Of a DNA stretch of 32,033 nt, positions 670 to 30,007 are shown piece by piece (the first letter of the stretch is position 1; each line of letters opens with the position of its first letter). The translations under genes were made by a program, and so were the position numbers. The stretch comes from Planctomyces sp. SH-PL62 (lineage in GTDB: Bacteria; Planctomycetota; Planctomycetia; Planctomycetales; Planctomycetaceae). Location of the stretch: contig CAMDDX010000044.1 in NCBI GenBank assembly GCA_945893075.1, positions 1-32,033 on the forward strand, read 5' to 3'. The notes below the pieces were generated by a model that saw only the letters and a list, made by a program, of their open reading frames with translations, ran no database searches and was not told the origin of the DNA.

Positions 670-1326
670 TCAAGCCAACAGCCGGCGCAGCGTTTCGAGG
701 TTGGTTGCTGAGTCGAAGATGGCTCGAATCGGGATGCGAAAGCCGGTGACGACGCGGCTTTCGATGTCTCCGGAACCGGACTTCAGCAGCAGGCGAAAGG
801 CACCTTCTTCGAGCACATATTGTTCGACGGACTCGGCCTCCGCATCCACGATCCAATACTCGCGGACGCCGTGAGCCTCGTAGTCCTCAAACTTCACGCC
901 GCGATCATATTTTTCTGTGGTCGGCGACAAGACCTCCACGACGAAATCCGGCACCGGAAACTTCATCGTGTCGGGAGTGAACGCCGCAGCGTTCTCGCGA
1001 CTGAAGAACACGACGTCTGGCTCGTAGTCATTACGAGGAAAAACACACAGGCACTTCTCATGGCGGACTTCGCCGAGTTGATGATGATTGACGAAATACT
1101 TCAGCAAGGCGACGAGTTCCAGTTGCGCACACAGATGACGGTTTCGAGCCGGTGAATGCACGATGACTTCTCCCTCAATGAATTCGACTTTCTGATCGTC
1201 CGACATCTCATCGTAAAAACGCTCGCGTCGTTCGGTCTCGTCGCGCAGACGATTGACGAGCGTGGCCGTGATGTCGGGCAGTCGCGGAGATTTCAGTATC
1301 GGCGAGAGGTCAAGTGTGGCAGTCAT
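670..1326 (-). CDS. Uma2 family (DUF820) PD-(D/E)XK nuclease-like protein
   Basis: The 218-residue protein has the layout of the Uma2/DUF820 family, predicted restriction-endonuclease-fold proteins of unknown role that are expanded in Planctomycetota and Cyanobacteria. Visible landmarks are VEFIEGEVI (about residues 47-55), EPDVVFF (102-108), PDFVVEVLSPTT (126-137) and the C-terminal KFEDYEAHGVREYWIVD block (145-161). The EPDV and EVLSP acidic residues fit the PD-(D/E)XK active site. An in-frame TTG at 1359 would extend it by 11 residues. I chose the ATG at 1326 because a CATAAT -10-like box lies 9 bases upstream and would be inside the longer frame. It is transcribed in the same direction as ispG, 92 bp downstream of it. 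Biological role unknown. Confidence 0.85.
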   Translation of the reverse strand: MTATLDLSPILKSPRLPDITATLVNRLRDETERRERFYDEMSDDQKVEFIEGEVIVHSPARNRHLCAQLELVALLKYFVNHHQLGEVRHEKCLCVFPRNDYEPDVVFFSRENAAAFTPDTMKFPVPDFVVEVLSPTTEKYDRGVKFEDYEAHGVREYWIVDAEAESVEQYVLEEGAFRLLLKSGSGDIESRVVTGFRIPIRAIFDSATNLETLRRLLA

Positions 1327-1335
1327 GGTGCTGAG

Positions 1336-1363
1336 ATTATGCCAGACGACTCGCGGCAAACAA
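1336..1363 (-). promoter_or_regulatory. Candidate promoter close to the Uma2 start
   Basis: On the minus strand, TTGTTT (1358-1363) and CATAAT (1336-1341) are separated by 16 bp. The -10-like box is only 9 bases from the ATG, so the transcript would be leaderless or nearly so. No Shine-Dalgarno is visible. Judged by eye only. Confidence 0.35.
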
Positions 1364-1418
1364 GCAGCGTCTCGCCAAACCGGCCGAAACTTCCGAAGTC
1401 TTCGGAGAGTCGCGTGTG

Positions 1419-2555
1419 CTACGACTTGGCGGCGATCAACTGGTCGAGTTGTTGTTTGAGTTGCGGGAGGATCGCGTCATACGGAAACGCTCCCAGCGAC
1501 TCCGTCCGGCGTTTGAGATTCACGTGCGTTGGTCCGCACCAGAGGCCGAGGTCGGCGTCGTCGGTTTCGCCGGGGCCGTTCACTCGGCAGCCCATGACGG
1601 CGATCGTGATGGCGTGCTCTTTCGCGTAGGCGGTCATCTCTTTGACTTGCTGAGCTAGTTCGACGAACGCTTCGTTTTCGACGCGCGAGCAACTGGGGCA
1701 ACTGATGATGTTGAGTTGCTTGAGGCCGAAGTCCACGAACGTGCGGACTCGGCCGGCGGCGATGTCTGCGAGAATTTGGCGGCCGACGGTGATCTCTTCC
1801 CCCTTGCGAGGATTCGGCACGGTCAGCGAGACGCGGATCGTGTCGCCGATCCCTTTGCTGATGAGCTGCTCGAAGGCGATGCGGGTTTTGATGATGCCGT
1901 CGGGAGGCATCCCGGCTTCGGTGACGCCCAGGTGCAGCGGGACGTCGGGACGACGCTCGGCGAAGCGGCGGTTGACTTCGATGACTTTGCTCGGATCGCT
2001 GTCCTTCAGAGAGACGGCGTACCGCGTGAAGCCGAGCGAATCGAGGAAGTCGCAGTGCTCCCACGCGCTTTCGAGCATCGGCGTGATCGAGTCGGCCGGA
2101 TCGAATTTCTCTTTCTTGTCGGGATCGACGCTGCCGCAGTTCACGCCGACGCGGATCGCGCAGTCGTTGTCGCGAGCGACGTCGGCGAGGTAGCGGACCT
2201 TGTCCTGCCACGGCTTCTCGCGTTCGTGGTGATAAAGATGTCCGGGGTTGTAGCGGACCTTGTCCACATGCGGGGCGACGAGTTCGGCGAGGCGATAGTT
2301 CTCCTGTAAATCGACGGAGAGATTTGCTGTTGTCTGCTTGCGAATCTCGGCGAGAGCGGCGGCGTCCTGCTTGCTGTCCACGGCGATGCGGATGACGTCG
2401 GCACCGGCGGCGGCGATCGCGTTGACCTGTTGGACGGTCGCGCCGATGTTGGTGGTGTGCGTGGCCGTCATGCTCTGCACGGCGATGGGGTGCTCTTGGC
2501 CGATGGTGATCGAGCCGATTCGCACGGCTCGCGTGGGATTGCGGGGCAGGTCCAA
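1419..2555 (-). CDS. ispG: 4-hydroxy-3-methylbut-2-en-1-yl diphosphate synthase (IspG/GcpE)
   Basis: The 378-residue protein is a full-length bacterial (short-form) IspG, the [4Fe-4S] enzyme that converts MEcPP to HMBPP in the MEP isoprenoid pathway in the cytoplasm. The N-terminal TIM-barrel part contains [13 protein letters not shown] (about residues 24-36) and [13 protein letters not shown]. The C-terminal cluster domain carries CPSC (C286, C289) and [10 protein letters not shown] (C323, E330), which are the three cluster cysteines and the conserved glutamate. The start is TTG at 2553-2555. AAGGAG (minus strand, 2563-2568) lies 7 bases upstream, which strongly supports this non-ATG start. 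The gene is divergent from the large beta-propeller gene and upstream of the Uma2 gene. Nothing is missing, so it is very likely functional. Confidence 0.97.
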
Positions 2556-2627
2556 GGGGAGACTCCTTTATGTGATGACCTCGTAAAGACCGGCGAATGA
2601 TAGCGGAGATTCATGGGGCGTGGAGTC

Positions 2628-2722
2628 GGGGTCGGGTGTGCGAATTTCAGAATTTGCCGACATAGGTTTGGGAGATTGGAAAGACGATGACGGCAAATTC
2701 TGAAATTCGCACACCCGACCCC
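2628..2722. repeat. Perfect 32-bp inverted repeat, GGGGTCGGG-ended
   Basis: Arms 2628-2659 and 2691-2722 are perfect reverse complements (32/32) around a 31-base loop. The outer ends read GGGGTCGGG...CCCGACCCC. Two other elements with the same ends occur at 15292-15375 and 19470-19572. It lies in the divergent region between ispG and the large beta-propeller gene and ends 7 bases before that gene's candidate -35 box. Confidence 0.95.
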
Positions 2723-2728
2723 TTCGCG

Positions 2729-2757
2729 TTGCCGCTCTTCGTGAACCGTGACAGAAT
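2729..2757 (+). promoter_or_regulatory. Candidate promoter for the large beta-propeller gene
   Basis: TTGCCG (2729-2734) and CAGAAT (2752-2757) are 17 bp apart. The -10-like box is 8 bases before the ATG at 2766, which implies a nearly leaderless transcript. No Shine-Dalgarno is seen. Inference from spacing only. Confidence 0.35.
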
Positions 2758-2765
2758 GGTCGGCC

Positions 2766-5700
2766 ATGAGAGTTCGCTGGTTCGGATTTTTGATCGTTCT
2801 CACGTTGGGCTCGGTGAGCTTCGCGCAGGATGCGTCGTCGAAGTCGGAGCATGAGCCGTTTCCGCAGTCGGCGAAATTGGCTCGTGATCGGCGGGCGGAG
2901 TTGGTGTTGGAGACGGCGCGGGCGCAGCTTCGGCAGAAGGACGACGCGTCGGCGATGGTGGCGCTGCAAGAGTTGCTCGATGGGCCGAATGCTTTCGGCC
3001 GTGGCGACACGACTGTGCCCAGTCTTGTGGAAGAGGCGACTCGGCTGCTGCGTGAGATGCCGACTTCGGCACGCGAGGCTTATGAACGACAACACGGTGC
3101 GGAAGCGAATCGGCTGTGGCAAGCGGCTCGGCAAAGTGATCGGCCGGAGGCGTTGCGAGAGGTAGCGGTACGATTCGGCGTGACGAAGGCGGGGTGGTCC
3201 GCGTTGCGAGATTTGGCGGGTCGGGCTCTGGATCGGGGCGAGTGGCGATTGGCGTCGGCGGCCTCGGCGGCGTTGGCGCGACATCCGCATTCGGCAGACT
3301 CGACAGAGACGGGGTGGATCACGGGCTGGATTCTGGCAGAGTCTCGCGCAGCATCGGATGGTCCATCGGCTCGCGAGTTGTGGGAGCGATACCGGACGTT
3401 GCTGGAACGCTCGCCCGCGCCGGCCACATCGGACAACAAGAACTTGGCGGAATGGTTGCAGAGACAATTGCCTCTGACAGCGCCCGCGGTGACAGATGAG
3501 CGAACTGCGTTCGGCCTCGCACCGTCTGGGCACAATGTTTGGCAGCACGCCGCGAAGACGAATGGCGTTTGGTTGGAGGAGATCTTCAACGAGTGGGGCC
3601 ACTACGACGTGCTGGCTTTGCCGAGCGTTCAGCCGTTGGTGATCGGTGATGTGGTGGTGGCGCGATTCGTGCATCCGGCGAAAGTCGTGGCCGTTGATGC
3701 TCGGCGCGGGAAGTTACTTTGGGAGCAATCGTTCGCGAAGGAACCGCTGGCTCCGACCTTCACGGACTTGGAGCGGCATCCGGGAATTCGCTCGTCGTTG
3801 ATGGACGAGTTACAGCGGCGTTGGTTCGGCGATTCGGTGCGCGGCCGCATGACCAGCGACGGTCGGCGGCTGTTTCTGGTGAATGACTTGGACGATCTCG
3901 ACCTGAAACCGGGCGCTGGCGGACGGCTGCGGAATCATCTGGAAGCGTGGGACTTGGCGACGGGCGAGCGGCGTTGGCGCATCGGCAGCTCGGTCAACGA
4001 ACCGCCGACGGGATTTGAAGGTGTGTACTTTCTCGGCCCGCCGCTGGTGAGCGACCGATTGTTGTACGTTGTGGCGCAGCGCGAATTGCAGGTGGCGTTG
4101 TGGGTGCTGCGGGCGAGCGATGGACAACTCGAATGGACGCTGCCGTTGGCGGAGACTGATCGGCAGCAATTCAAAGAGACTGGCTGGCGTCACGTCGCGT
4201 GCCCGGTGACGTGGGCTGGCGGCCGATTGATTTGCCCCACGGCAGCCGGCTGCTTCGTGGCGGTCGATCCGACGACGCGATCGCTGGCGTGGAGCGCGCG
4301 GTTTGAGCGTGACGACATCAAGAATGCGACCGGTTTCTTCGCGGCGGATCGTGATCGACCTTTACCGGTGCGGTGGTGGGAATCGTGGCGTGAGGTGACG
4401 AGTCGTCAGGTGAAAGTCGAGAGTCGCGAGTCGGACGGCAACTCTGTGTTACTCATCGCGACTCCGGAATCGCGCAGCTTACGAGCGTTGGATTCGCGGA
4501 CGGGTGAACTCGTCTGGCGTGTGAAGTTCGCGGAGCCGTTGTTTTTCGCCAGCGGACCGTCTGGAGTTTTGGTTTTTGAACGACAAGGGGTCACGGCCGT
4601 GGACCCAGCCACCGGTCGCGAGCGCTGGCATACGCCACTTTCAGCACCGGCCGGGCCGGGAGATTGGATCAGCGGACATTACGTCTGTCCGTTGCTGGCT
4701 GGCGGATGCGCGGTGATCGACGCGGCGTCAGGAAGTGTGCGCCGGACTGACGACCATTTCTGGGGGGATTTGGATTCCAAGGAATTGGCGTCGAAGGAAC
4801 TCTTCTCATTGTCGACAGGCCGCATCGTGCGTGCCGGTGAGCGATGGGCGGTGCTGACTCCCAGCCACCTGGGGTTGTTCGAGTCCGCTGCCAATCGGCC
4901 GTCCGAGATCACCAAGCGACCACCGTCGAAGCCAGACGAAATCGAGAGTGCCCAGCGCCGCGGCGATCTGCTCACTGCATTGCGTGACACGCTCGATTGG
5001 CTGGACCTGCACCCCGACGGCGAGCGGACGATTTCGGAGCCAGCCACTGCCGATTCCAGATCGCGATCGGAGGTGCCTCGATCGGCCTCCACGCGGACCG
5101 TGCGGCTCGATCGTTGGGCACAGGGAATGATTCTCGACCTGTTCGCGAAAGCCGACGCAGTGACTCGGCCAAAGATGGATGCCGTGCTGATCGAGCGACG
5201 ACAACGAGCGAACGACAGCCCGGATGCCTTCGCCTTAAAGACGCTGGCGGACAAGCTGGCTGGCTTGCCAATGGGACGCGACTTGCGACTCCAGTTGTCG
5301 GGACGGTCCAGCGTTGGTGTCGGTTATCTGCCGACGAGTCTCGCGCTCCGCGAAATCGCTCAGGGGAATGATCGTGCGGCGGCGGCTCAGGCGTGGTATC
5401 GACTGGCGCTGCTGCATGATTTTCGGAGTGAGCCGCAGGAAGCGGCCGACTGCTATCGCGAGCTGCGCGACCGCTTCGCCGACGTGAAGCTGGCGGACGG
5501 ACGCAGTTCCTCGGAATGGCTGGCCGAAGTCATGCCCGATTCGCTGATTGGCCGTGCGTTGTCCGAGGGGCCGCGCGACCCGTGGCCCGATCGGCTGCCG
5601 AAGATCACGCCTCAAGACGAACCGCACGATGACATCTATTACTTTCCGATTCCGTTCCAAAGCCGCGATCCGAATTGGCGACGGATGACGGTCGCCGTAG

Positions 5701-6999: not shown

Positions 7000-7094
7000 G
7001 TAGGGTGGGTCGAGTCATCGAGACCCACCACGAACCTCGGCCCCATAGTCATGAGAAACATTTTGGTGGGTCTCGATGACTTGACCCACCCTAC
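7000..7094. repeat. 31-bp inverted repeat, GTAG...CTAC type
   Basis: Arms 7000-7030 and 7064-7094 match at 30 of 31 positions around a 33-base loop. The ends are GTAGGGTGGGTC and GACCCACCCTAC. It fills most of the 162-bp gap between the beta-propeller gene and the DUF1553 gene and could act as a transcript-end hairpin, although no T-run follows. Confidence 0.93.
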
Positions 7095-7133: not shown

Positions 7134-9713
7134 ATGCTGACTCGCCTCATCACGATCATCGAGCGCTGCACAGCGCTGGCGGTCGCGAGTGTGTGGTTCA
7201 TGGCCACCGTCGTCGCGTCATTCGCCGAGGAACCCGCGCCGGCGAAGCCCTCAAAGCTCGACTTTCGCCGTGACGTGTTTCCAATCCTCTCGCGACGCTG
7301 CTGGGAATGTCATCTCGGTGGCGATGCGTCGTCAGGAATTCGGCTGGATGTTCGGGAGGAGTGGCTTGGCGAGACGACTGGTCGGCCGCTGGTCGTCATC
7401 GGCAAAAGCGCTCGCAGCCGAGTCATCGAAGTGCTGGAAGGCCGAGACGCCAAAATCGTCATGCCCGCCGAAGGGGATCGGCTCAAGCCGGCGGAGATCA
7501 AACTTCTGCGCAAGTGGATCGATGACGGCTTTGATTGGGACGATGAGTTCCTGCCGACGCCGAAAGTGAAGTCGGATCATTGGGCGTTTCAGCCATTCGT
7601 TCGTAGGTTGGGCACTCTTGCCCGACCTTTGCACGGCGAGAAGACAAAGACGGGCAAGAGTGCCCGTCCTACGAATTCGATCGACGCTTTCATCGGTGCG
7701 ACAGCCGATGAAGCCGACCGCCGCACGCTCATTCGCCGGCTTTCGCTCGATCTGCTCGGCCTGCCTCCGAGCCGCGACGACGTCGAAGAGTTCGTCGCCG
7801 ACACGCGGCCGGACTCTTACGAACAACTCGTGGATCGGCTGCTCGCGTCGCCCGCTTACGGCGAACGCTGGGCACGGCATTGGCTGGATGTCGCGCGCTG
7901 GGCCGAGTCCGAAGGCTACGAGAGCAATCATCCTCGCCCGTTCGCCTGGCGATACCGCGATTACGTCATCAACAGTTTCAACAGCGACAAGCCGTTCGAC
8001 GAATTCGTGCGTCAACAAATCGCCGGTGATGAATTGCAGCCTTACTCGGACGAGAACTTGATCGCGACCGGCTTCCTGGCGGCAGCTCGCATCAGCAGCA
8101 ACGAAGAGGACAAGTGGCGGCAACGCAACGACGTGCTCGTGGACATCACCAACGCGACGGCAAATGCGTTTCTCGGACTGACGATGCAGTGTGCTCAGTG
8201 CCATAACCACAAGACCGATCCGATTTCGACGCGGGACTATTACCGTCTGCAAGCGTACTTCGTCACCGGCCAGCCGATTGATGTGGCGTTACGCGATCCG
8301 TTGTTGCGACGAGAATTCGAGTCCCGCCGACCACCCGAATACGAACCGGCTCTCGCGTTGCGTGAATCTGTGCTGGAATCGGCTCGGCGACAGTTCCATG
8401 ACGAAGTACGACGTTCGCTGACCCACGAGGAACGCTCGGCCTACGACACACCGGCCGAGCAACGCGACGTCGAACAAGAACGGCTCGCCCGGTTGGTGGA
8501 CCTCAAGTTTCAAGCGTCGGTGAATGTGCTCGATCGGTATATCTCCGTCGCGAACCGACCTCTTTACGACGGGGTCAAAAAGCGAATTGCTGAGATTGAA
8601 CAGACTTCGCCACGCATCCCGCAGACGTTCGTGTTCTACTCGCCAGCGACCAGCCCGCATCGGCTGGACGTGTTGCCGAGCATCGGCTTCTATCCGTTGC
8701 CGTTTAGCCGAGAGGCACTCCCTCGTGAGCGCGGCTCCGTGAAAGTTCGCGGCGACGTTCACAACATCGGGCCAACCGTCACAGCGGGAGTGCCGGCGGT
8801 CGTGAGGCAGGTTTTCAACCTGCCCGGCCCCCAACGGCTCGAAAGCAGTCGTCACGGGCAGGTTGAAAACCTGCCCCACGGCCGCACAGCACTCGCCAAC
8901 TGGCTGACCGATCCGCGTCATCCGCTGACGGCCCGCGTGTGGGTCAATCGAATCTGGCAATGGCATTTCGGAACGGGTCTCGTGGCCACGTCCGATGACT
9001 TCGGTGTGCGAGGTGCGAAGCCGACGCACCCGGAATTGCTCGATTGGCTCGCCAGCGAATTGATCGACTCCGGCTGGAGTACGAAGCACGTTCAGCGACT
9101 GATCGTGACGTCGCGGACTTATCGGATGAGTTCTGTAGCTGGGACGCCTACGTCCGAGCGCCCGGACGTAGGCGTCCGGGCTACGTTCCCGCGTCACCGC
9201 GTCGAAGCCGAAGTCCTGCGCGACACACAACTCGCCGTCGCGGGATTGCTCGAACGCCATATCGGCGGGCCGAGTGTCTCGATGGACTCCCGCGAGTCCT
9301 CGAACCGCCGCAACCTGTACCTGTTCCAAAAGCGAGGCAATCCGCCGTCGATGCAAGGCTTGTTCGATGGCCCGAATGAAGCCTCCGAAAGCTGCCCGCA
9401 GCGGCACGTCTCGACGACGCCATTGCACGCTTTGTTTCTGCTCAACAACGAATTCGCGCTGAGATGTGCGATCGTGCTGGCTCAGCGGATCGAATTGCAG
9501 GCTGGCCCCGACCGCGAGCGGCAAAACGACCTGCTGTTCCGCGAAGTCCTCAGCCGCCCTGCCACCGAAACCGAACGCCTCGCGCTGCTCAAATTCCTCG
9601 ACGAAGAAACCGCGAAACGCTCCGGCGGTTCAGCGACGCCGAACGCCCCGACGCCACTCCAGTTGTTGTGTCATGTGATGATGAGCCTCAGCGAGTTGTC
9701 TTCGTTGGAGTGA
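7134..9713 (+). CDS. Planctomycete cytochrome c / DUF1549 / DUF1553 protein
   Basis: The 859-residue exported protein has an N-terminal hydrophobic segment (about 12-31), then a PSCyt1-type c-haem domain with CWECH (C56, C59, H60). DUF1549 (about 185-395) contains [24 protein letters not shown] and a second CxxCH, CAQCH, near residue 352. DUF1553 (about 580-830) contains [19 protein letters not shown] and the conserved tail. It would be a multihaem or haem-containing envelope protein of unknown substrate, often proposed to act in degradation of complex substrates. It is encoded with DUF1501 two genes downstream, as is usual. Oddly, three different palindromic elements lie inside the frame, at residues of about 156-180, 556-582 and 667-684, and are translated as linker peptides. 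There is no strong Shine-Dalgarno. A 6-base gap separates it from the next gene. Confidence 0.93.
7602..7673. repeat. In-frame palindromic element inside the DUF1553 gene (1)
   Basis: Arms 7602-7624 and 7651-7673 (23 bp, 21 matching) flank a 26-base loop; the ends are CGTAGG...CCTACG. The full 72 bp equals 24 codons, so the frame is kept. It is translated as [12 protein letters not shown] followed by [12 protein letters not shown]. It lies in the linker between the cytochrome domain and DUF1549. Confidence 0.92.
8802..8879. repeat. In-frame palindromic element inside the DUF1553 gene (2)
   Basis: Arms 8802-8826 and 8855-8879 (25 bp, 24 matching) flank a 28-base loop; the core is GGCAGGTTTTCAACCTGCC. 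The 78 bp equals 26 codons. It is translated as RQVFNLPG... and ...GQVENLPH, directly before the GRTALANWL start of DUF1553. Confidence 0.93.
9135..9184. repeat. In-frame palindromic element inside the DUF1553 gene (3)
   Basis: Arms 9135-9156 and 9163-9184 (22 bp, 20 matching) flank a 6-base loop; the ends are GTAG...CTAC. The inner arm sequence GGACGCCTACGTCCG recurs in the intergenic element at 27141-27200. It is translated as [16 protein letters not shown] in a DUF1553 segment where the paralogue in this window has an ordinary sequence of nearly equal length. Confidence 0.92.
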
Positions 9714-15268: not shown

Positions 15269-15291
15269 AGTCGCGTGGCGAGTTGAGTGAC

Positions 15292-15375
15292 GGGGTCGGG
15301 AGTCTTTTTCTCGTGCCCGTCGATTGCGGAACCAACTCAGTTTCCTCAGGGCACGAGAAAAAGACTCCCGACCCC
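15292..15375. repeat. Perfect 27-bp inverted repeat, GGGGTCGGG-ended
   Basis: Arms 15292-15318 and 15349-15375 are perfect complements (27/27) with a 30-base loop. The outer 20 bases (GGGGTCGGGAGTCTTTTTC plus one) match the element at 19470; the inner arm differs but is still matched by its partner arm. It lies between the small basic gene and the membrane-protein gene. Confidence 0.95.
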
Positions 15376-15401
15376 TTCTCGCGTGGAAATCTGAACGCAT
15401 C

Positions 15402-16970: not shown

Positions 16971-16989
16971 AAATGATCGCCGCACTCAA

Positions 16990-17051
16990 GTAGCCTGACT
17001 CTCCGAGTCGGGACTCCAATGCAAAACTCCCGACTCGGAGAGTCAGGCTAC
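16990..17051. repeat. Perfect 24-bp inverted repeat, GTAG...CTAC type
   Basis: Arms 16990-17013 and 17028-17051 are perfect (24/24) around a 14-base loop. The ends are GTAGCCTGACTC and GAGTCAGGCTAC. The same arm sequence recurs at 18579-18641, on the other side of the beta-propeller gene. It ends 22 bases before that gene's ATG. Confidence 0.95.
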
Positions 17052-17073
17052 TGAACTACAAGAGAGCAATCGC

Positions 17074-18582
17074 ATGACAGGCCGATGGACAGTGTCGAGC
17101 GTGGCCGCCGCGTTGGTTCTGATGTCACTCGGAATCACCGCTGCCGCCGATCCAAAACCGCCGAGTGGCCGCGCGGCTTTGACCGGAACAACCTCCGAGA
17201 AGCCGGTCACGGATGTGCCGGCTCCGGATCGCAAAGGGGAGGACTGGTCGTCCTTCTTGGGGCCGCTCGGTACTGGGGTCTGCAATGAGACCAACTGGCT
17301 GAAGAGTTGGCCGGAAGGCGGATTGAAGACGGCGTGGTCGAAACGTGTCGGCACCGGATACAGCGCACCGTCAGTGATGGGGAATCGGCTGGTCGTCTTT
17401 CATCGGCCGCGCGGCAACGAGGAGATCATCGAGTGTCTGCGATCCGACACGGGCGAGCCGTTGTGGAAGTTCACCTACGCGACGGAGTACGAAGATCGTT
17501 ACGCCTACAACAACGGCCCGCGCTGCACTCCGCTGCTGACGAAGACACGCCTCTTTACGCTCAATCCCGAAGGGAAACTCTTCTGCCTCGACCTCGTGAC
17601 CGGAAAGCAAGTTTGGGCGCGAGACTGCTCGAAAGACTTTCGCATTCCGGACGAGGAGAACTTTTTCGGCGTCGGCTGTACTCCGATTTTGGAAGGGAAC
17701 TTGTTGATCGTGTTGGTCGGCGGGCAACCGAACTCCGGCGTGGTCGCGTTCAATTCGGAGACCGGCGATACCGTCTGGCAATCGGTCGGCAAGAAGACTT
17801 GGAACGGCGTCGAGACCGGCGGTTCGATCAAACCGAAGTACGAGTGGACTGGCACCGAGTCGCTTTACAGCTATTCGTCGCCAATCGCTGCGACGATTCA
17901 TGGACGCCGTCAGGTGCTCTGTCTGATGCGGCAAGGTCTCGTGTCGCTCGATCCGAAAGATGGTTCGGAGAACTTCAAGTTCTGGTTTCGACCGAAGGAG
18001 CGCGACTCGGTCAATGCAGCTCGGCCGGTGGTCGTCGGTGACAAGATTTTTCTGTCGGCCGCGTACAAAGCCGGTTCGGCACTGTTGCAGGTGCAGGCAT
18101 CGGATCAGGACGTCAAAGTTCTCTGGCAAGACCCGCGGAACATGCTGACGCACTGGTCCACGACGATTCACGTTGACGGCCACTTATACGGCTTTAGTGG
18201 AAGACACGAAGAGGAAGGTGAGTTGCGCTGCCTCGACCTCGAAACCGGAAAAGTGTTGTGGCAGTCGACCGGCTACGAGGGAGACACCTCGAAGCTCTCG
18301 CAAAGTCCGGTCACCGGTGAGATCAAAGACGGGACCGGCAAAATTATCCCGTTCCCGTTCTTGGGCCGAGGGTCGAAGATTCAAATCGGCGACCGCTTCT
18401 TGGCACTTGGCGAGCGTGGCACGCTGTCGCTGATGAAGATCAATCCTGACAAGTTTGAGGAACTCGGCCGCATGTCGGTGAGCGGAATTAAATATCCGGC
18501 GTGGGCCGCACCGGTGCTGTCTCGCGGCCGCGTGTATCTGCGCAGCGAGACGCATCTCGTTTGTTTGGATTTGGCTCCGTAG
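17074..18582 (+). CDS. Secreted PQQ-type beta-propeller protein
   Basis: The 502-residue protein has a signal peptide (about 1-25, ...VLMSLGITAAADP) and a low-complexity linker, then WSSFLGPLGTGVCNE, the usual entry (xWPxFRGPxGxG) of planctomycete PQQ-like propellers. Blade motifs follow: LFCLDLVTGKQVWARD (about 168-183), VVAFNSETGDTVWQS, LVSLDPKDGSENFKFW, LRCLDLETGKVLWQS and the closing THLVCLDLAP. It is a single eight-blade-sized propeller. PQQ binding is not implied. A weak AAGAGAG lies upstream of the ATG. The TAG stop (18580-18582) is part of the palindrome at 18579. The gene is bracketed by two copies of the same palindrome. Confidence 0.9.
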   Translation: MTGRWTVSSVAAALVLMSLGITAAADPKPPSGRAALTGTTSEKPVTDVPAPDRKGEDWSSFLGPLGTGVCNETNWLKSWPEGGLKTAWSKRVGTGYSAPSVMGNRLVVFHRPRGNEEIIECLRSDTGEPLWKFTYATEYEDRYAYNNGPRCTPLLTKTRLFTLNPEGKLFCLDLVTGKQVWARDCSKDFRIPDEENFFGVGCTPILEGNLLIVLVGGQPNSGVVAFNSETGDTVWQSVGKKTWNGVETGGSIKPKYEWTGTESLYSYSSPIAATIHGRRQVLCLMRQGLVSLDPKDGSENFKFWFRPKERDSVNAARPVVVGDKIFLSAAYKAGSALLQVQASDQDVKVLWQDPRNMLTHWSTTIHVDGHLYGFSGRHEEEGELRCLDLETGKVLWQSTGYEGDTSKLSQSPVTGEIKDGTGKIIPFPFLGRGSKIQIGDRFLALGERGTLSLMKINPDKFEELGRMSVSGIKYPAWAAPVLSRGRVYLRSETHLVCLDLAP

Positions 18583-18641
18583 CCTGACTCTCCGAGTCGG
18601 GTGCCTTCGACGAACAGACCCGACTCGGAGAGTCGGGCTAC
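18579..18641. repeat. 24-bp inverted repeat supplying stop codons of both flanking genes
   Basis: Arms 18579-18602 and 18618-18641 match at 23 of 24 positions around a 15-base loop. The arm sequence is the same as at 16990-17051. The GTAG at the left end contains the stop of the beta-propeller gene, and the CTAC at the right end contains the stop (TAG, 18638-18640) of the convergent trmB-like gene. Confidence 0.95.
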
Positions 18642-19435
18642 GACTTGGCTTCGATTTCATCCAACTGGCGCAGGCGGCGGTCGGCGTTGAATGTCGGAGG
18701 GGGCAGCGAGTTCGCTAATCGCAGGGCTTCATCCACGCTGATTTCATCTCGGCGAATCGCTTCGCCCCGAAAGATCGGCAGGCCGTGATGGCGGGCGATG
18801 ATCTCGCGCCGAGTTCGCCCGCGAGGTGAATCTGGCCACGGGCCAGCGAGTGCGTGCATCTCGAAGAAGCACGGTACGACCGACTGCATGTAGGCCCAAT
18901 AGTTCGGATGATCCGTCTGCAACAGTAGCTTGCCGCCAGGGACAAGCGAGCGATGCGCCAGCGACAAGAACTCGGGCGTGATCAGCCGGCGATGAATTTG
19001 CGCGGGATCGTAGAACGGCTGCGGATGGTAAATGTGCAATTCGGCGACGGAGCCAGCGGCAACATGCTCGGACAGAAACTCGCGGCCGCCAATGACTGCG
19101 AAGCGAATGTTGCTCAGCCCGCGCTGGTTGGCTCGGCGAGTCGCATAGCGGATCACAACCGGCAGGATTTCGATGCCCAGATGATCGACCTCCGGCCGAG
19201 CGACCGCGCTGCCCAATGTCGAGCGTCCATTGCCGCAACCAATGTCGATCACGATCGGCGCTCGCCGGCCAAACAGAGCGTCCCAGTCCAACAAGCCTGG
19301 AGGCACTTTTTTGAGTGCCGTCTTCGCCCATTGTTCGGGCGGCAAGATGCGGCCGGGGATTGGCACGCCGAACTCAAGTTCAATGTCGCCTGGTTGTGGC
19401 TGCGGTTGCGGCGGTGAGCGACGAACGGGAGGCAT
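18638..19435 (-). CDS. trmB: tRNA (guanine-N7-)-methyltransferase-like protein (TrmB family)
   Basis: The 265-residue protein carries a Rossmann SAM site VIDIGCGNGRSTL (about 62-74), then HLGIEI (85-90), where the acidic residue binds the ribose. SNIRFAVIGGREFL and the late LLLQTDHPNYWAYM (about 171-183) match the TrmB layout. The hallmark segment, usually FPDPWxKxRHxKRR, reads HIYHPQPFYDPAQIHRR (134-150). It lacks the PDPW core but keeps the spacing and RLITPEFL. The protein is therefore a divergent TrmB, expected to make m7G46 in tRNA, with altered substrate handling possible. The N-terminal 15 residues are Pro/Gln-rich. It is convergent with the beta-propeller gene, and both stops lie in one palindrome. 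Confidence 0.82.
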   Translation of the reverse strand: MPPVRRSPPQPQPQPGDIELEFGVPIPGRILPPEQWAKTALKKVPPGLLDWDALFGRRAPIVIDIGCGNGRSTLGSAVARPEVDHLGIEILPVVIRYATRRANQRGLSNIRFAVIGGREFLSEHVAAGSVAELHIYHPQPFYDPAQIHRRLITPEFLSLAHRSLVPGGKLLLQTDHPNYWAYMQSVVPCFFEMHALAGPWPDSPRGRTRREIIARHHGLPIFRGEAIRRDEISVDEALRLANSLPPPTFNADRRLRQLDEIEAKS

Positions 19436-19469
19436 GAGGAGAGCGTCTCGAAAGAAGGTGCGACGCGAG

Positions 19470-19572
19470 GGGGTCGGGAGTCTTTTTCAGGTCGGACGAA
19501 TGGTCATTGGGTGTCTGATGGCAAGTCGACGGTCAAACTCATTCCGCCGACCTAAAAAAGACTCCCGACCCC
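19470..19572. repeat. 26-bp inverted repeat, GGGGTCGGG-ended
   Basis: Arms 19470-19495 and 19547-19572 match at 25 of 26 positions around a 51-base loop. The outer part matches the element at 15292-15375; the inner part differs from it but pairs with its own partner arm. It sits between the trmB-like gene and the DUF3467 gene, both on the minus strand. Confidence 0.94.
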
Positions 19573-19583
19573 GTTCCGTGGTC

Positions 19584-20305: not shown

Positions 20306-20370
20306 AGCCGGAACGCGCTAGCGTCCGGTTTCTGGATTCATCGAGAACCGGACGCTAGCGCGTTCCGGCT
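20306..20370. repeat. Perfect 25-bp inverted repeat, AGCCGG...CCGGCT type
   Basis: Arms 20306-20330 and 20346-20370 are perfect (25/25) with a 15-base loop. The core is CGCTAGCG. It is related to the element at 21323-21381 (shared CGCTAG core and CCGGTT...AACCGG inner ends). It lies just upstream of the tandem DUF3467 start. Confidence 0.95.
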
Positions 20371-21843: not shown

Positions 21844-21909
21844 CGTTTAACCGCACGCCGCAGGCACGCGCGTTTGGAAACGCGCGTGCCTGCGGCATGC
21901 GGTTAAACG
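21844..21909. repeat. 32-bp inverted repeat with 2-base loop between convergent genes
   Basis: Arms 21844-21875 and 21878-21909 match at 31 of 32 positions with only two unpaired bases between them. The ends are CGTTTAACCGC and GCGGTTAAACG. Its right arm contains the TAA stop (21903-21905) of the minus-strand oxidoreductase. It is probably a two-way terminator. Confidence 0.95.
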
Positions 21910-23937: not shown

Positions 23938-24903
23938 ATGATGCTGCGAACTCTCGGCCGAACCTCTCTGCCCATCACGCCGCTGGGGATGGGCTGCTGG
24001 CCGATCGCGGGGATCACCAGCATCGACGTCAACGAGGCCGATAGCCTCGCCACGATTCGAGCCGCGTTCGACGCCGGAATCAACTTCTTCGACACCGCCT
24101 ACTGCTACGGCTTTGAGGGCGAGAGCGAGCAAATGATCGCGCGCGTGCTGCGGCAAGACCGTGCGAAGATCGTCCTGGCGACTAAGGGAGGAATCCATTG
24201 GGTGGCCGGAAAACAGGCTCGCTGCGGCCGTCCGGAAACGTTGCGGCGCGAGTGCGACGAAAGCCTGCGACGCCTGCAAACCGATCGCATCGACCTCTAC
24301 TACCTGCACGCTCCAGACCCCAATGTCCCGATCGAAGAATCGGCAGGCGCGATTGGCGAACTCATTCAACAAGGCAAAGTGCTGAGCGCAGGACTCTCCA
24401 ACGCCAACATCGAATTGCTCGACCGCTTTCACCGAGCCTGCCCGCTGACTGCGTATCAACCGCACTTCAACATGCTGCAACGCGAGATCGAACACGCGCA
24501 GTTGCCGTGGTGCGTCGAACACGGCGTCGCGGCCATCGTCTATTGGCCGCTGATGAAAGGACTACTCGCCGGCCACCTGCCGCGCGAGCATGTCTTCGAC
24601 GCCAAAGACGGCCGCGGCAAGTATCCCATGTTCTCCGGCGACGAGTGGCAGAAGAACCAAGACTTCCTGGACGTACTGCGCGCGATGGCGGACGAGATCG
24701 AACGCCCAGTCTCGCAGATCGTGCTCAACTGGACGATCCAGCGCCCCGGCATCACCGCCGCGCTTTGCGGAGCCAAACGCCCCTATCAAATTCGCGAGAA
24801 TGCCGAGTCAATGAGTTGGTCGCTCACAGCCGACCAAATCACCCGCATCAACGCCGCGATTGCAGATCGAGGCCCAGTCGTCTCGAAAGCGGCCGTCGCG
24901 TAG
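23938..24903 (+). CDS. Aldo/keto reductase
   Basis: The 321-residue cytoplasmic protein is full length for the family. The catalytic tetrad is visible: D52 and Y57 (FFDTAYCYG), K83 (LATKGG) and H124 (YYLHAPD). The segment SAGLSNANIELLDRF is the usual SGVSN-type motif. AALCGAKRPYQIRENAESMSW is the NADP(H)-binding C-terminal loop. It reduces carbonyls with NADPH; the substrate cannot be predicted. Two Met codons are adjacent and I take the first. There is no strong Shine-Dalgarno. The TAG stop is inside the palindrome that starts at 24900. Confidence 0.94.
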   Translation: MMLRTLGRTSLPITPLGMGCWPIAGITSIDVNEADSLATIRAAFDAGINFFDTAYCYGFEGESEQMIARVLRQDRAKIVLATKGGIHWVAGKQARCGRPETLRRECDESLRRLQTDRIDLYYLHAPDPNVPIEESAGAIGELIQQGKVLSAGLSNANIELLDRFHRACPLTAYQPHFNMLQREIEHAQLPWCVEHGVAAIVYWPLMKGLLAGHLPREHVFDAKDGRGKYPMFSGDEWQKNQDFLDVLRAMADEIERPVSQIVLNWTIQRPGITAALCGAKRPYQIRENAESMSWSLTADQITRINAAIADRGPVVSKAAVA

Positions 24904-24960
24904 GTTGGGACTCCGTCCCGACCCTTCCTCGAAGACGGTCGGGACAGAGTCCCAACCTAC
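24900..24960. repeat. 24-bp inverted repeat, GTAG...CTAC type, overlapping a stop codon
   Basis: Arms 24900-24923 and 24937-24960 match at 23 of 24 positions around a 13-base loop. The ends are GTAGGTTGGGACTC and GAGTCCCAACCTAC. The left GTAG supplies the TAG of the aldo/keto reductase. It separates this gene from the convergent pseudouridine synthase. Confidence 0.95.
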
Positions 24961-27206: not shown

Positions 27207-29714
27207 CTAATCCAAATTCCTGAACTCCGCCGTCGCTAGCAGTGCCTGGCAGTAGCTGGCAAGGAGTTTGCGGTATTGCTGATCGTTGTCGCTGTTGATT
27301 GGGTTCTGATCAAAGAACGCGGCGGCCAGTTTGGTTTCCTCGGCGTCGGGAGCGCGGCTGAAGCAGAGCACGAAGGCGTGGCGAAGTCGTTGCTCGTGGC
27401 TGTCGGCTTCGCGCTGCACGCGATTGGCGAGAGCGGTCGCTCGCGATTGCACGAAGGTGCTGTTCATCAAATAGAGAGCTTGGACCGGGACGTTCGTCGT
27501 TTCGCGGTCGCCGGTGACGAGGCTCGGTTCGGCAAAGTCGAACAAGTCCAGCACGTCGGGCAAGCGGTCGCGCAGCACGGGGAGATACACCGAACGATGT
27601 TTTGAGCCATCAAGGTCCGCGGGGATGTTCGGATCGAGACCGATGAGCGAGATCGGTCGGTCGCCGATCTTCGTGCCGACAAGCGAACCGACGGGCCGAG
27701 CGGTGTCGAGTTCTCCGGCGAAGACGAGCATCGCATCCCGAATCGCTTCGGCATCGAGCCGTCGTTTGGACGCTCGCCACAGCAACCGGTTTTCGGGATC
27801 GGTGCGGAAGGCGTCTTCGCGATACGCCGACGACTGACGATAGGTGCGTGACAGCACGATCTCGCGCACGAGTTTTTTGATTGACCAGCCGTCGGCCATG
27901 AATCGCACCGCCAACGTATCAAGCAGTTCCGGATGACTCGGCCGTTCGCCGCTGAAGCCGAAGTTGTCCATCGTGCGAACGAGGCCCGCTCCGAACAGAT
28001 GTCGCCACACGCGATTCGCCATCACCCGCGCGGTCAGCGGATGGTCGGGATGCGTCAGCCAGCGAGCGAACTCCAACCGCCCGCTGTGACGAGCGGGGAC
28101 TGTCGGTGCGTCGGCAATCTCGATGACGGCCGGGAAGCGACGCGGTACGGGGCGGCCGGGTTTGTTGATCTCGCCGCGTTCCAGCAATGGCGAGTTGATG
28201 ATCCGCTGCCGATCCTGCACTCCCATCGCGAGCGGCAGTGCTTGGCCCGACTCGTCCACTTTTTCGAGTTGCCCTTCAATCCCACCCGACGTCCAGAAGA
28301 TGCGGAGCGCATCGCGAATCGAAAACTCTTTTTCGGCATCACCGCCGCTCCTGCGAGCTTTCATCGAGGCGGCCATGCGGTCTTGCTGCTCCTTCTTGAG
28401 CGACGCGAGTTGAGTCTTCAATTGCTCGACCCGTTGCTTGCCGATGCTCGGATGCAGGATCGGCGCGTCCGCGCCGCGCGGCAGCACCAGCGGATCGCCG
28501 CCGATCCGATTCGACGGCGAGACCGCTGTGCCGAAATACGTCTTCGTGCTCGCGAAGACGCCGGAGAGCGCGTAGTAGTCCTGCATCGAGAACGGTTCGA
28601 GCTTGTGATCGTGACAGCGAGCACACGCGACCGAACTGGCCATCACCGCTCGCGTCACCGTATCGAGTTGCTCGTCCGCGACATCCGCCGCGAATTGGAA
28701 AGGATTCATCTCATCGAGATTCTTCGGCCCGATCGCCAGGAACCCGGTGGCGATCAACAGCCGCGCCCGTTCGGCATCGTTCTCAGACGGCAGCAAGTCC
28801 CCGGCGATCTGCTCGATTAGGAAGCGATCGAACGGCAGGTCGGCATTCACCGCGTCGATGACGTAATCGCGGAATCGCCACGCATACGGAAACGAGATGT
28901 TCGCCTCCTTGCCGCTCGATTCCGCGAAGCGAGCCACGTCCAACCAATGCCTCCCCCAGCGTTCGCCAAACTGCGGCGACGCGAGCAACGCATCCGCCTC
29001 CGCCGCCAGCGCCGAGTCGATGCCGTCAGACTCGATGCGCTTTTGAAACGCCGAGATCGAGTCCGGCGATGGAGGCAGTCCGACCAAATCGAAATGCAAT
29101 CGCCGCAGCAACGTCGCTGGCTCAGCATCGGGCGACGGGCTGAGTCCGCTCTCATTCAACTTCGCGAGGATGAAATGATCCAGCTCGCGCTTGGTCCAAT
29201 CGAGATTCTTCGTCGCTGACGGCGGCGGCTTGTGAGCCGTCGGTTTCTGATAGGCCCAGAACTTTCGTCCTGCTTCGATCGTGACTGGCGGAGTCGCCGC
29301 GTTTGCCGCGACCTCTTCGCGCGGATCGGCGGCTCCCGAATTGATCCACGTTTTGAAATCATTGATCACCGACTCCGGCAGCCGCTCCTTCTTCGGCGGC
29401 ATCTTGAGATCGGGATCGGTGTGCGAGATCGCCGTCAGCAGCACGCTCTTCTTCGCATCACCCGGCACGACGGCGGCACCTCGATCACCACCGGCTCGAA
29501 TCCCGCGTCGCGAATCGAGCCGCAAGCCACCTTCCGACTTCGCGGCCTTCGCCGAATGGCACTGATAACAATGCTGCACCAGCACAGGACGAATCTTGGA
29601 CTCAAAGAATGCGGCCGCTTCCGGAAACTCAGCGGCCATCGCCAGAGAGCCACTCATCATGAGTAGCACTCCGACGATCAACCACCTAACGCAGCTTCGA
29701 GCGACTCGCGGCAT
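27207..29714 (-). CDS. Planctomycete cytochrome c / DUF1549 / DUF1553 protein (second copy)
   Basis: The 835-residue exported protein has a signal segment (RWLIVGVLLMMSGSLAMA, about 10-27), then CYQCH (C49, C52, H53) in a PSCyt1 domain. DUF1549 contains [25 protein letters not shown] and CARCHDHK near residue 362. DUF1553 contains ARWLTHPDHPLTARVMANRVW and SRTYRQSS, with the tail ELDTARPVGSLVG. The ATG at 29714 is chosen because AAGGA lies 9 bases upstream. The frame extends to 29870, but that part translates a palindrome. Unlike the first copy, no palindromic element interrupts its coding sequence, so it is a useful reference. It is followed by its DUF1501 partner. Confidence 0.93.
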   Translation of the reverse strand: MPRVARSCVRWLIVGVLLMMSGSLAMAAEFPEAAAFFESKIRPVLVQHCYQCHSAKAAKSEGGLRLDSRRGIRAGGDRGAAVVPGDAKKSVLLTAISHTDPDLKMPPKKERLPESVINDFKTWINSGAADPREEVAANAATPPVTIEAGRKFWAYQKPTAHKPPPSATKNLDWTKRELDHFILAKLNESGLSPSPDAEPATLLRRLHFDLVGLPPSPDSISAFQKRIESDGIDSALAAEADALLASPQFGERWGRHWLDVARFAESSGKEANISFPYAWRFRDYVIDAVNADLPFDRFLIEQIAGDLLPSENDAERARLLIATGFLAIGPKNLDEMNPFQFAADVADEQLDTVTRAVMASSVACARCHDHKLEPFSMQDYYALSGVFASTKTYFGTAVSPSNRIGGDPLVLPRGADAPILHPSIGKQRVEQLKTQLASLKKEQQDRMAASMKARRSGGDAEKEFSIRDALRIFWTSGGIEGQLEKVDESGQALPLAMGVQDRQRIINSPLLERGEINKPGRPVPRRFPAVIEIADAPTVPARHSGRLEFARWLTHPDHPLTARVMANRVWRHLFGAGLVRTMDNFGFSGERPSHPELLDTLAVRFMADGWSIKKLVREIVLSRTYRQSSAYREDAFRTDPENRLLWRASKRRLDAEAIRDAMLVFAGELDTARPVGSLVGTKIGDRPISLIGLDPNIPADLDGSKHRSVYLPVLRDRLPDVLDLFDFAEPSLVTGDRETTNVPVQALYLMNSTFVQSRATALANRVQREADSHEQRLRHAFVLCFSRAPDAEETKLAAAFFDQNPINSDNDQQYRKLLASYCQALLATAEFRNLD

Positions 29715-29730
29715 AGCAATCATTCCTTGC

Positions 29731-29856
29731 ACGGCTGGCTCGTAGCCACGCTCGCCAAGAGCGTGGGGAACGCGGCCTAAACGTGGTTTTCCCACGCTCT
29801 TGGCGAGCGTGGCTACGACTGCAAACTCAACGCAAACCAAACTGCTCGCCAGCCGT
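29731..29856. mobile_element. MITE-like 126-bp insertion with 9-bp terminal inverted repeats
   Basis: The ends are ACGGCTGGC (29731-29739) and GCCAGCCGT (29848-29856), perfect reverse complements. ATCATTCCTTGC(A) flanks the segment directly on both sides (29719-29731 and 29857-29869), like a 12-13 bp target duplication. Inside is a perfect 27-bp inverted repeat (29741-29767 and 29791-29817) of CGTAG...CTACG type. It encodes no protein. Confidence 0.6.
29741..29817. repeat. Perfect 27-bp inverted repeat inside the MITE-like segment
   Basis: Arms 29741-29767 and 29791-29817 are perfect (27/27) with a 23-base loop. The ends are CGTAGCCACGC and GCGTGGCTACG. It is of the same GTAG...CTAC type as the other palindromes. 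Confidence 0.95.
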
Positions 29857-29857
29857 A

Positions 29858-30007
29858 TCATTCCTTGCAAACCGGCTCCTTCAGATACCGATCGGCGAAC
29901 TGCAAAAACGTCGGCCAGTTGGGACCGGCGATGTGGCCGCCGCTATGTTGACGGAAGGTGATCGTGCCGTCGATTGAAGTGAGATTCCAAGACCACAGGA
30001 TCAACAG
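29858..30007 (-). pseudogene. C-terminal fragment of a possible alpha/beta-hydrolase
   Basis: On the minus strand, 49 codons read LWSWNLTSIDGTITFRQHSG, then GHIAGPNWPTFLQFADRYL and KEPVCKE with TGA at 29858-29860. A stop (30008-30010) blocks the frame upstream. The FRQHSGGH...NWPTFLQFADRYL pattern resembles the histidine-containing C-terminus of alpha/beta-hydrolase or acetyl-xylan-esterase-like proteins of Planctomycetota, but that is a guess from memory. Before the MITE-like insertion, its last codons would have overlapped the Shine-Dalgarno of the DUF1553 gene, suggesting it once preceded that gene in an operon. Confidence 0.5.

Follow-up and report, generated by a model that had tools for sequence, protein, structure and literature searches.

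A probable MITE family with conserved ends around unrelated hairpin dimers in Planctomyces

The window, the whole 32,033-nucleotide stretch of DNA analysed here, very probably contains a member of a MITE family that belongs to the host genus. The core of this copy is a REP-like dimer. The segment had been read from its sequence alone as a non-autonomous, MITE-like transposon, and that reading is supported by further copies, a duplication of fixed length, and an empty site. Homologous arms surround several unrelated hairpin dimers in other members of the family, and the core is thus replaceable. MITEs and GTAG-tagged REPs are each well known already.

The inserted unit and its empty site

The unit is bounded by 9-bp terminal inverted repeats, ACGGCTGGC and GCCAGCCGT, whose sequence and coordinates were confirmed as first reported (Table 1). 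Between them is a 75-bp inverted-repeat core. The internal hairpin that had been claimed is present, with 31-bp arms, and the unit folded as single-stranded DNA is far more stable than its shuffles (z = -10.6). Direct repeats of ATCATTCCTTGC(A) lie on both sides. The claim that they exceed chance is borne out by a flanking-repeat score of 13, against a maximum of 12 in 598 pairings of flanks from different hairpin copies. Relative to a sister unit, L210, approximately 17 bp of the left arm have been lost, and the last base of the window unit is A, not G as in the family.

The unit is missing from the orthologous site in two relatives, G006 and G004. In G006, the sequences on either side of the unit are joined with a single copy of the repeat, forming an empty site. 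The reverse-strand query maps there in two parts, 727-844 and 971-3500, to positions 1391-1508 and 1497-4020, with a 12-base overlap. The same arrangement is observed in G004, again with the repeat in single copy. These are the empty sites in close strains that the sequence-only reading had called for. It had also predicted that removing the unit with one repeat would leave the hydrolase and DUF1553 genes overlapping, and in G006 and G004 alike the stop codon of the upstream frame either overlaps the DUF1553 start or lies directly against it. The comparison was made for the window unit alone and is informative in these two genomes only; the other congeners examined are uninformative on the empty site because their upstream DNA differs.

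Orthologues of the DUF1553 gene are present in the genus, and the PSD1/PSCyt genes mark the host as a planctomycete. The "hydrolase fragment" upstream is what remains of a truncated gene, and a long open hydrolase-like frame is kept in G004. The insertion adds 138 bp (46 codons) without a stop in the DUF1553 frame, which makes an N-terminal extension of the protein possible. From the duplication and the gene overlap, we infer a gain here rather than losses in both relatives.

Table 1. Features of the unit, its flanking genes, and other inverted repeats in the window
Feature	Position	Strand	Remarks
PSD1/PSCyt2 gene (DUF1553, DUF1549) with planctomycete cytochrome C domain	27207..29723	-	Start duplicated by the insertion
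Truncated hydrolase-like gene, tail	29858..29974	-	TGA stop overlaps the duplicated ATG
Whole MITE unit, family definition C-ACGGCTGGC ... GCCAGCCGT-A	29730..29857	.	128 bp; missing from the orthologous site in G006 and G004
Same unit, 126-bp definition of the sequence-only reading	29731-29856
9-bp ends, ACGGCTGGC / GCCAGCCGT	29731-29739 / 29848-29856
Direct repeats ATCATTCCTTGC(A)	29719-29731 and 29857-29869		100% identity
Target-site duplication, left copy TCATTCCTTG	29720..29729	.	10 bp; identity extends to 12-13 bp; one copy in empty sites
Target-site duplication, right copy TCATTCCTTG	29858..29867	.	One copy in empty sites
Left terminal inverted repeat CACGGCTGGC	29730..29739	+
Right terminal inverted repeat	29848..29857	-	TACGGCTGGC on this strand; consensus CACGGCTGGC
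Left arm, shortened	29730..29741	+	29 nt in L210, with ~17 more bases before the core
Core, inverted dimer of GTAG-tagged palindrome	29742..29816	.	Half-sites 29742-29766 (+) and 29792-29816 (-)
Inverted arms of the hairpin, 31 bp	29740-29770 / 29788-29818
Right arm, 41 nt	29817..29857	-	Homologous to arms of units with other cores; matches the arm model
Other inverted repeats	7000-7094, 8796-8885, 15289-15378, 16989-17052, 18578-18642, 19463-19579, 20306-20370, 21844-21909, 24900-24960		7000-7094 is a core type of other MITE units

Copies of the family and the 10-bp duplication

The segment is not unique. Further segments of about 126 bp with the same ends, which the sequence-only reading had proposed to look for, were found in the own genome and in congeners. 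A listing of ACGGCTGGC in the own genome gave a second unit with identical 9-bp ends at C14:31820-31963. A pattern with an inner gap of 90-120 recovers the window unit alone, the C14 unit falling 6 bp outside those limits. A wider pattern, applied across the genus, recovered twelve units from five genomes: the C14 and window units, and ten more in four congeners. ACGGCTGGC is almost always preceded by C and GCCAGCCGT almost always followed by G, which makes CACGGCTGGC/GCCAGCCGTG the ends of the family. The 9-mer alone is not enriched in the genome (counts of 144 and 150 versus 215 and 178 for the control). It is the paired arrangement of ACGGCTGGC ends, not the 9-mer itself, that counts.

Looser matching with an arm requirement, applied to the fetched loci, gave 31 two-ended candidates, most of them 128-159 bp long. 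These were gathered by way of their own ends and arms and show the existence and the rules of the family, not its abundance. Identity between their flanks is 67% at a length of 10 and 22-30% at lengths of 5-9 and 11-14. Strong duplications are present in 16 of the 31, versus 0.63 expected and a maximum of 4 in 300 shuffles. Given the peak at 10, the 12-13 bp in the window represents a 10-bp duplication with identical neighbouring bases. The flanking duplication first described is therefore real, but its true length is 10 bp. Likewise, the 12-13 bp duplications anticipated at each copy are found at a fixed length in about half or more of the copies, but that length is 10 bp. The remaining 15 candidates lack a strong duplication, for which age, chance pairs, or recombination are offered as causes.

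The constant length also bears on an origin by repair, in which the segment would be filler DNA captured at a staggered break, the flanks duplicated alongside, and the matching ends accidental. Two standalone hairpins, L023 and L055, have duplications of other lengths (20 and ~26-28 bp), as such repair might leave. Independent sites in several genomes share identical ends and the same 10-bp length of duplication. This constancy refutes the origin by repair for the window unit, leaving it almost no probability. Filler-DNA repair may still apply to L023 and L055.

Members of the MITE family are spread through the genus. The arm sequence model, R1, has matches in 12 of 12 genus genomes, with 4 to 43 in each at E <= 3. 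Further or partial members in the own genome lie on C14, C343, and C104, and three ends lie near the edges of contigs C274, C168, and C272. The genus genomes are fragmented drafts, and several units are located at contig ends. In the collection of named genomes, two real members were found among the listed matches that were inspected, and their sequences match units of G010 and G006 exactly. Many of the matches listed share a single length of 116 bp (Pseudomonas, Sphingomonas, and others) and were kept out of the inspected set. Rfam returned nothing above threshold near the window unit.

Two loci have unusual architectures. L368 (G003:C51:21366-21602) is a 237-bp unit with a perfect 10-bp duplication and a second T2-type hairpin seemingly inside the first. 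At L396 (G001:C301:5279-7395), two T2-type half units face each other around a gene of 553 codons, as if the gene were in the middle of a MITE.

Exchangeable hairpin cores

The core of the window unit, designated T1, is an inverted dimer of GTAGCCACGCTCGCCAAGAGCGTGG with GTAG at both outer edges. It agrees with the description of a REP dimer, in which GTAG and an imperfect palindrome form an inverted dimer able to fold into a larger hairpin. The half-site occurs in 12 of 12 genus genomes and in 0 of 47 other genomes examined. The own genome has 28 matches per strand and 41 catalogued dimers, with many copies between genes, and the window's copy is the only one of the 41 that bears MITE ends.

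The units that were fetched carry at least five unrelated dimers, four of them GTAG-tagged, plus some others. T1 is found in the window unit and L210. The remaining types are T2 (GGTGGCACGTCCTGACCATCGGG...), T3 (GTAGCCCGACCCCTTGTGGGTCGG), T4 (GTAGGGTGGGTCGAGTC...), and T6 (GTAGGGTGGGACCAGCG...). The arms, about 25-44 nt long, are homologous across these core types, and the arm-core junction is often exactly at GTAG. In T3, T4, and T6 units, the arms often measure exactly 33 nt up to GTAG and are up to 74-78% identical past the first 10 bases. The arms of L210 (T1) and L213 (T2), counted by eye, agree at ~33/37 and 24/26 positions. Cores of types T1, T2, T4, and T6 were also found without arms among the fetched loci, and an armless T4 lies within the window at 7000-7094. 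For T3, few copies were observed away from the arm-selected loci, and each of these had arms. The finding of homologous arms around several unrelated dimers shows that the core is replaceable. A broader proposal is a modular vehicle: a single set of MITE ends would pick up one unrelated REP dimer after another at its centre and pass them around, so that DDE-type MITEs and REPs would form composites and exchange parts. The chances of this proposal are about even.

The GTAG...CTAC palindrome had been linked to a wider hairpin population, and the link holds: the same hairpin occurs about 40 more times in the genome without MITE ends, and other units carry other hairpin families. The unit may be a minor route of hairpin spread, as had been suggested, but it is not the main one, since the other own-genome copies of the window hairpin lack the ends. 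T1 hairpins thus spread mostly in some other way. Two general explanations were rejected. The first, that all hairpin copies are worn MITEs, fails because the flanks of the catalogued copies outside the window unit hold no more MITE-like ends than shuffles. The second, that flanking repeats are a general mark of hairpin insertion, fails because only 3 of 41 copies have them, at lengths of 13, 20, and ~26-28.

Other hairpins were observed at several sites. The window has many strong inverted repeats of several families, a number of them of the GTAG...CTAC form. L023 (own genome, C39:11918-11984) is a standalone T1 hairpin between 20-bp direct repeats. L055 (own genome, C191:7338-7401) is another, located between direct repeats of ~26-28 bp; at its site, three congeners (L123, L112, and L113) lack the hairpin and carry the repeat in single copy, pointing to a separate insertion mechanism of variable length. 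At the sites of L013, L058, and L023, congeners (L145, L159, L160, L111, and L124) carry different hairpin families at one intergenic spot, as if these were hotspots or the hairpins had been replaced. L025 (own genome, C8:17577-17642) is a T1 hairpin within a seemingly conserved coding region; a related hairpin is present at this site in G007, and a shorter sequence in four other congeners.

Candidate transposases, mechanism, and known systems

The sequence-only reading had proposed looking for a transposase gene with the same termini. Among the IS4-family and Y1 loci fetched from the draft genomes, no intact transposase gene was found with family arms on both sides.

The Y1 loci bear on a rival reading, in which a RAYT/Y1 transposase moved the window unit as an ordinary REPIN (REP dimer) and the ends and flanking repeats belong to the insertion site. 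The GTAG-tagged inverted dimer at its core, with ~40 further copies alone in the genome, is as expected of a REPIN, as are eight Y1_Tnp matches in the own genome. Flanking repeats are also present at two of the standalone copies (20 and ~26-28 bp). However, the ends and the 10-bp duplications are common to units with other cores, and both the ends and the core are missing from the empty site. No unoccupied site with arms but no hairpin was seen. The Y1 loci examined have neither T1 repeats nor MITE arms; no T1 repeat lies near those of the own genome, and 30 Y1 loci of the genus, from incomplete genomes, have one GTAG dimer nearby, of another family. A RAYT (Y1) gene flanked by the repeat of the window unit was not found in the available loci of these incomplete genomes. 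In addition, target duplications are not known for Y1 transposases of the IS200/IS605 type. An ordinary REPIN is accordingly highly improbable. Among rejected candidates, no Y1 genes were found inside the arms, and a loose pair of ends bracketing the Y1 gene of L173 did not withstand closer examination.

A parent of the IS4 family (PF01609), of which the MITEs would be deletion derivatives, is suggested by a relic in G001 (L397/L398). This DDE_Tnp_1 relic lies between CACGGCTGGCCAGTTTTTGAATTTGGGCGGCGCG and CACGCCTGGGTAAATTTTGAATTTGGGTGCCACG, both of which resemble the MITE arm, and known IS4-family relatives make target duplications of about 9-12 bp. However, many intact relatives across the class end like CAACGCCGTTAACC, and other IS4-family loci have no arms. 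Where duplications are detected in the relatives, they are 9 bp long, e.g., GGTGGCACT or AGTGGCACC, and are similar to the GGTGGCAC palindrome found where arm and core meet in T2 units. Because of these different ends and GGTGGCAC-like duplications, the relic looks like a later insertion into a MITE, and IS4-family parentage is unlikely. The class-wide IS4-family transposases (L437-L465), whose elements end in sequences such as CAACGCCGTTAACC and have 9-bp duplications similar to GGTGGCAC(C/T), may prefer hairpin palindromes as targets.

For the MITE family, a DDE transposase would have been supplied in trans by an autonomous relative, now lost, absent from the assemblies, or diverged beyond recognition; since no autonomous element with these ends was found, the transposase class is only an inference. 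The unit would have inserted into TCATTCCTTG at the junction of the hydrolase stop and the DUF1553 start, and filling in of a 10-bp stagger would have produced the target duplication. REP-like dimers may have entered the MITE or been swapped between MITEs by recombination. The dimers would then be carried along by the MITE as a minor second route of hairpin spread.

Known bacterial MITEs include NEMIS, ERIC, RUP, Bcr1, and Nezha (PMC3733652). Like them, the window family is short, non-coding, and gene-adjacent, with terminal inverted repeats, a target duplication, and a strong hairpin. Unlike them, it has at its centre a REP-like dimer that can be replaced and comes in at least five unrelated types, and its parent transposon was not found here.

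GTAG REPs have been reported from Planctomycetes, with RAYTs proposed as their movers (PMC3733652; see also PMC3116915 and PMC2817692). GTAG-tagged REP dimers or REPINs (PMC3733652, PMC3116915, PMC2817692) resemble the core of the window unit in having GTAG followed by a palindrome, two inverted copies, and many occurrences between genes. Unlike REPINs, the dimer here lies within TIR-bearing arms with a 10-bp target duplication, and no RAYT flanked by the window repeat was found.

The closest precedent, noted in 2013, is that of REP dimers in long palindromes of Anabaena variabilis and Halothiobacillus neapolitanus (PMC3733652). There, as here, a REP dimer is central in a conserved longer palindrome that is not found without the dimer, and these cases are probably the same kind of composite. 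They were described as REPs inserted in palindromes, with one REP family each, and the term "target site" is absent from PMC3733652. Beyond that description, the present family shows duplication of the target, a site still empty in relatives, and homologous arms around several core families. A small search of open-access papers gave no fuller precedent, which is weak evidence of absence.

IS elements that target REP sequences are known (PMC1525189). The IS4-family relatives that appear to insert at GGTGGCAC-like palindromes perhaps have a similar habit. The difference is that a full IS inserts into hairpins there, not the MITE itself.

A MITE with a repeatedly different REP centre bears on how REP-type hairpins found new families and reach new sites. 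The family offers a natural experiment: the MITE can be followed by its arms and the swaps by its cores, and every event is marked by 10-bp duplications and empty sites. As a caution, more than one mechanism may have brought a hairpin repeat into a genome of this kind. A MITE with swapped REP cores would be a concrete second route for hairpin spread, and conserved ends around unrelated hairpins suggest one way in which such hairpins move around genomes.
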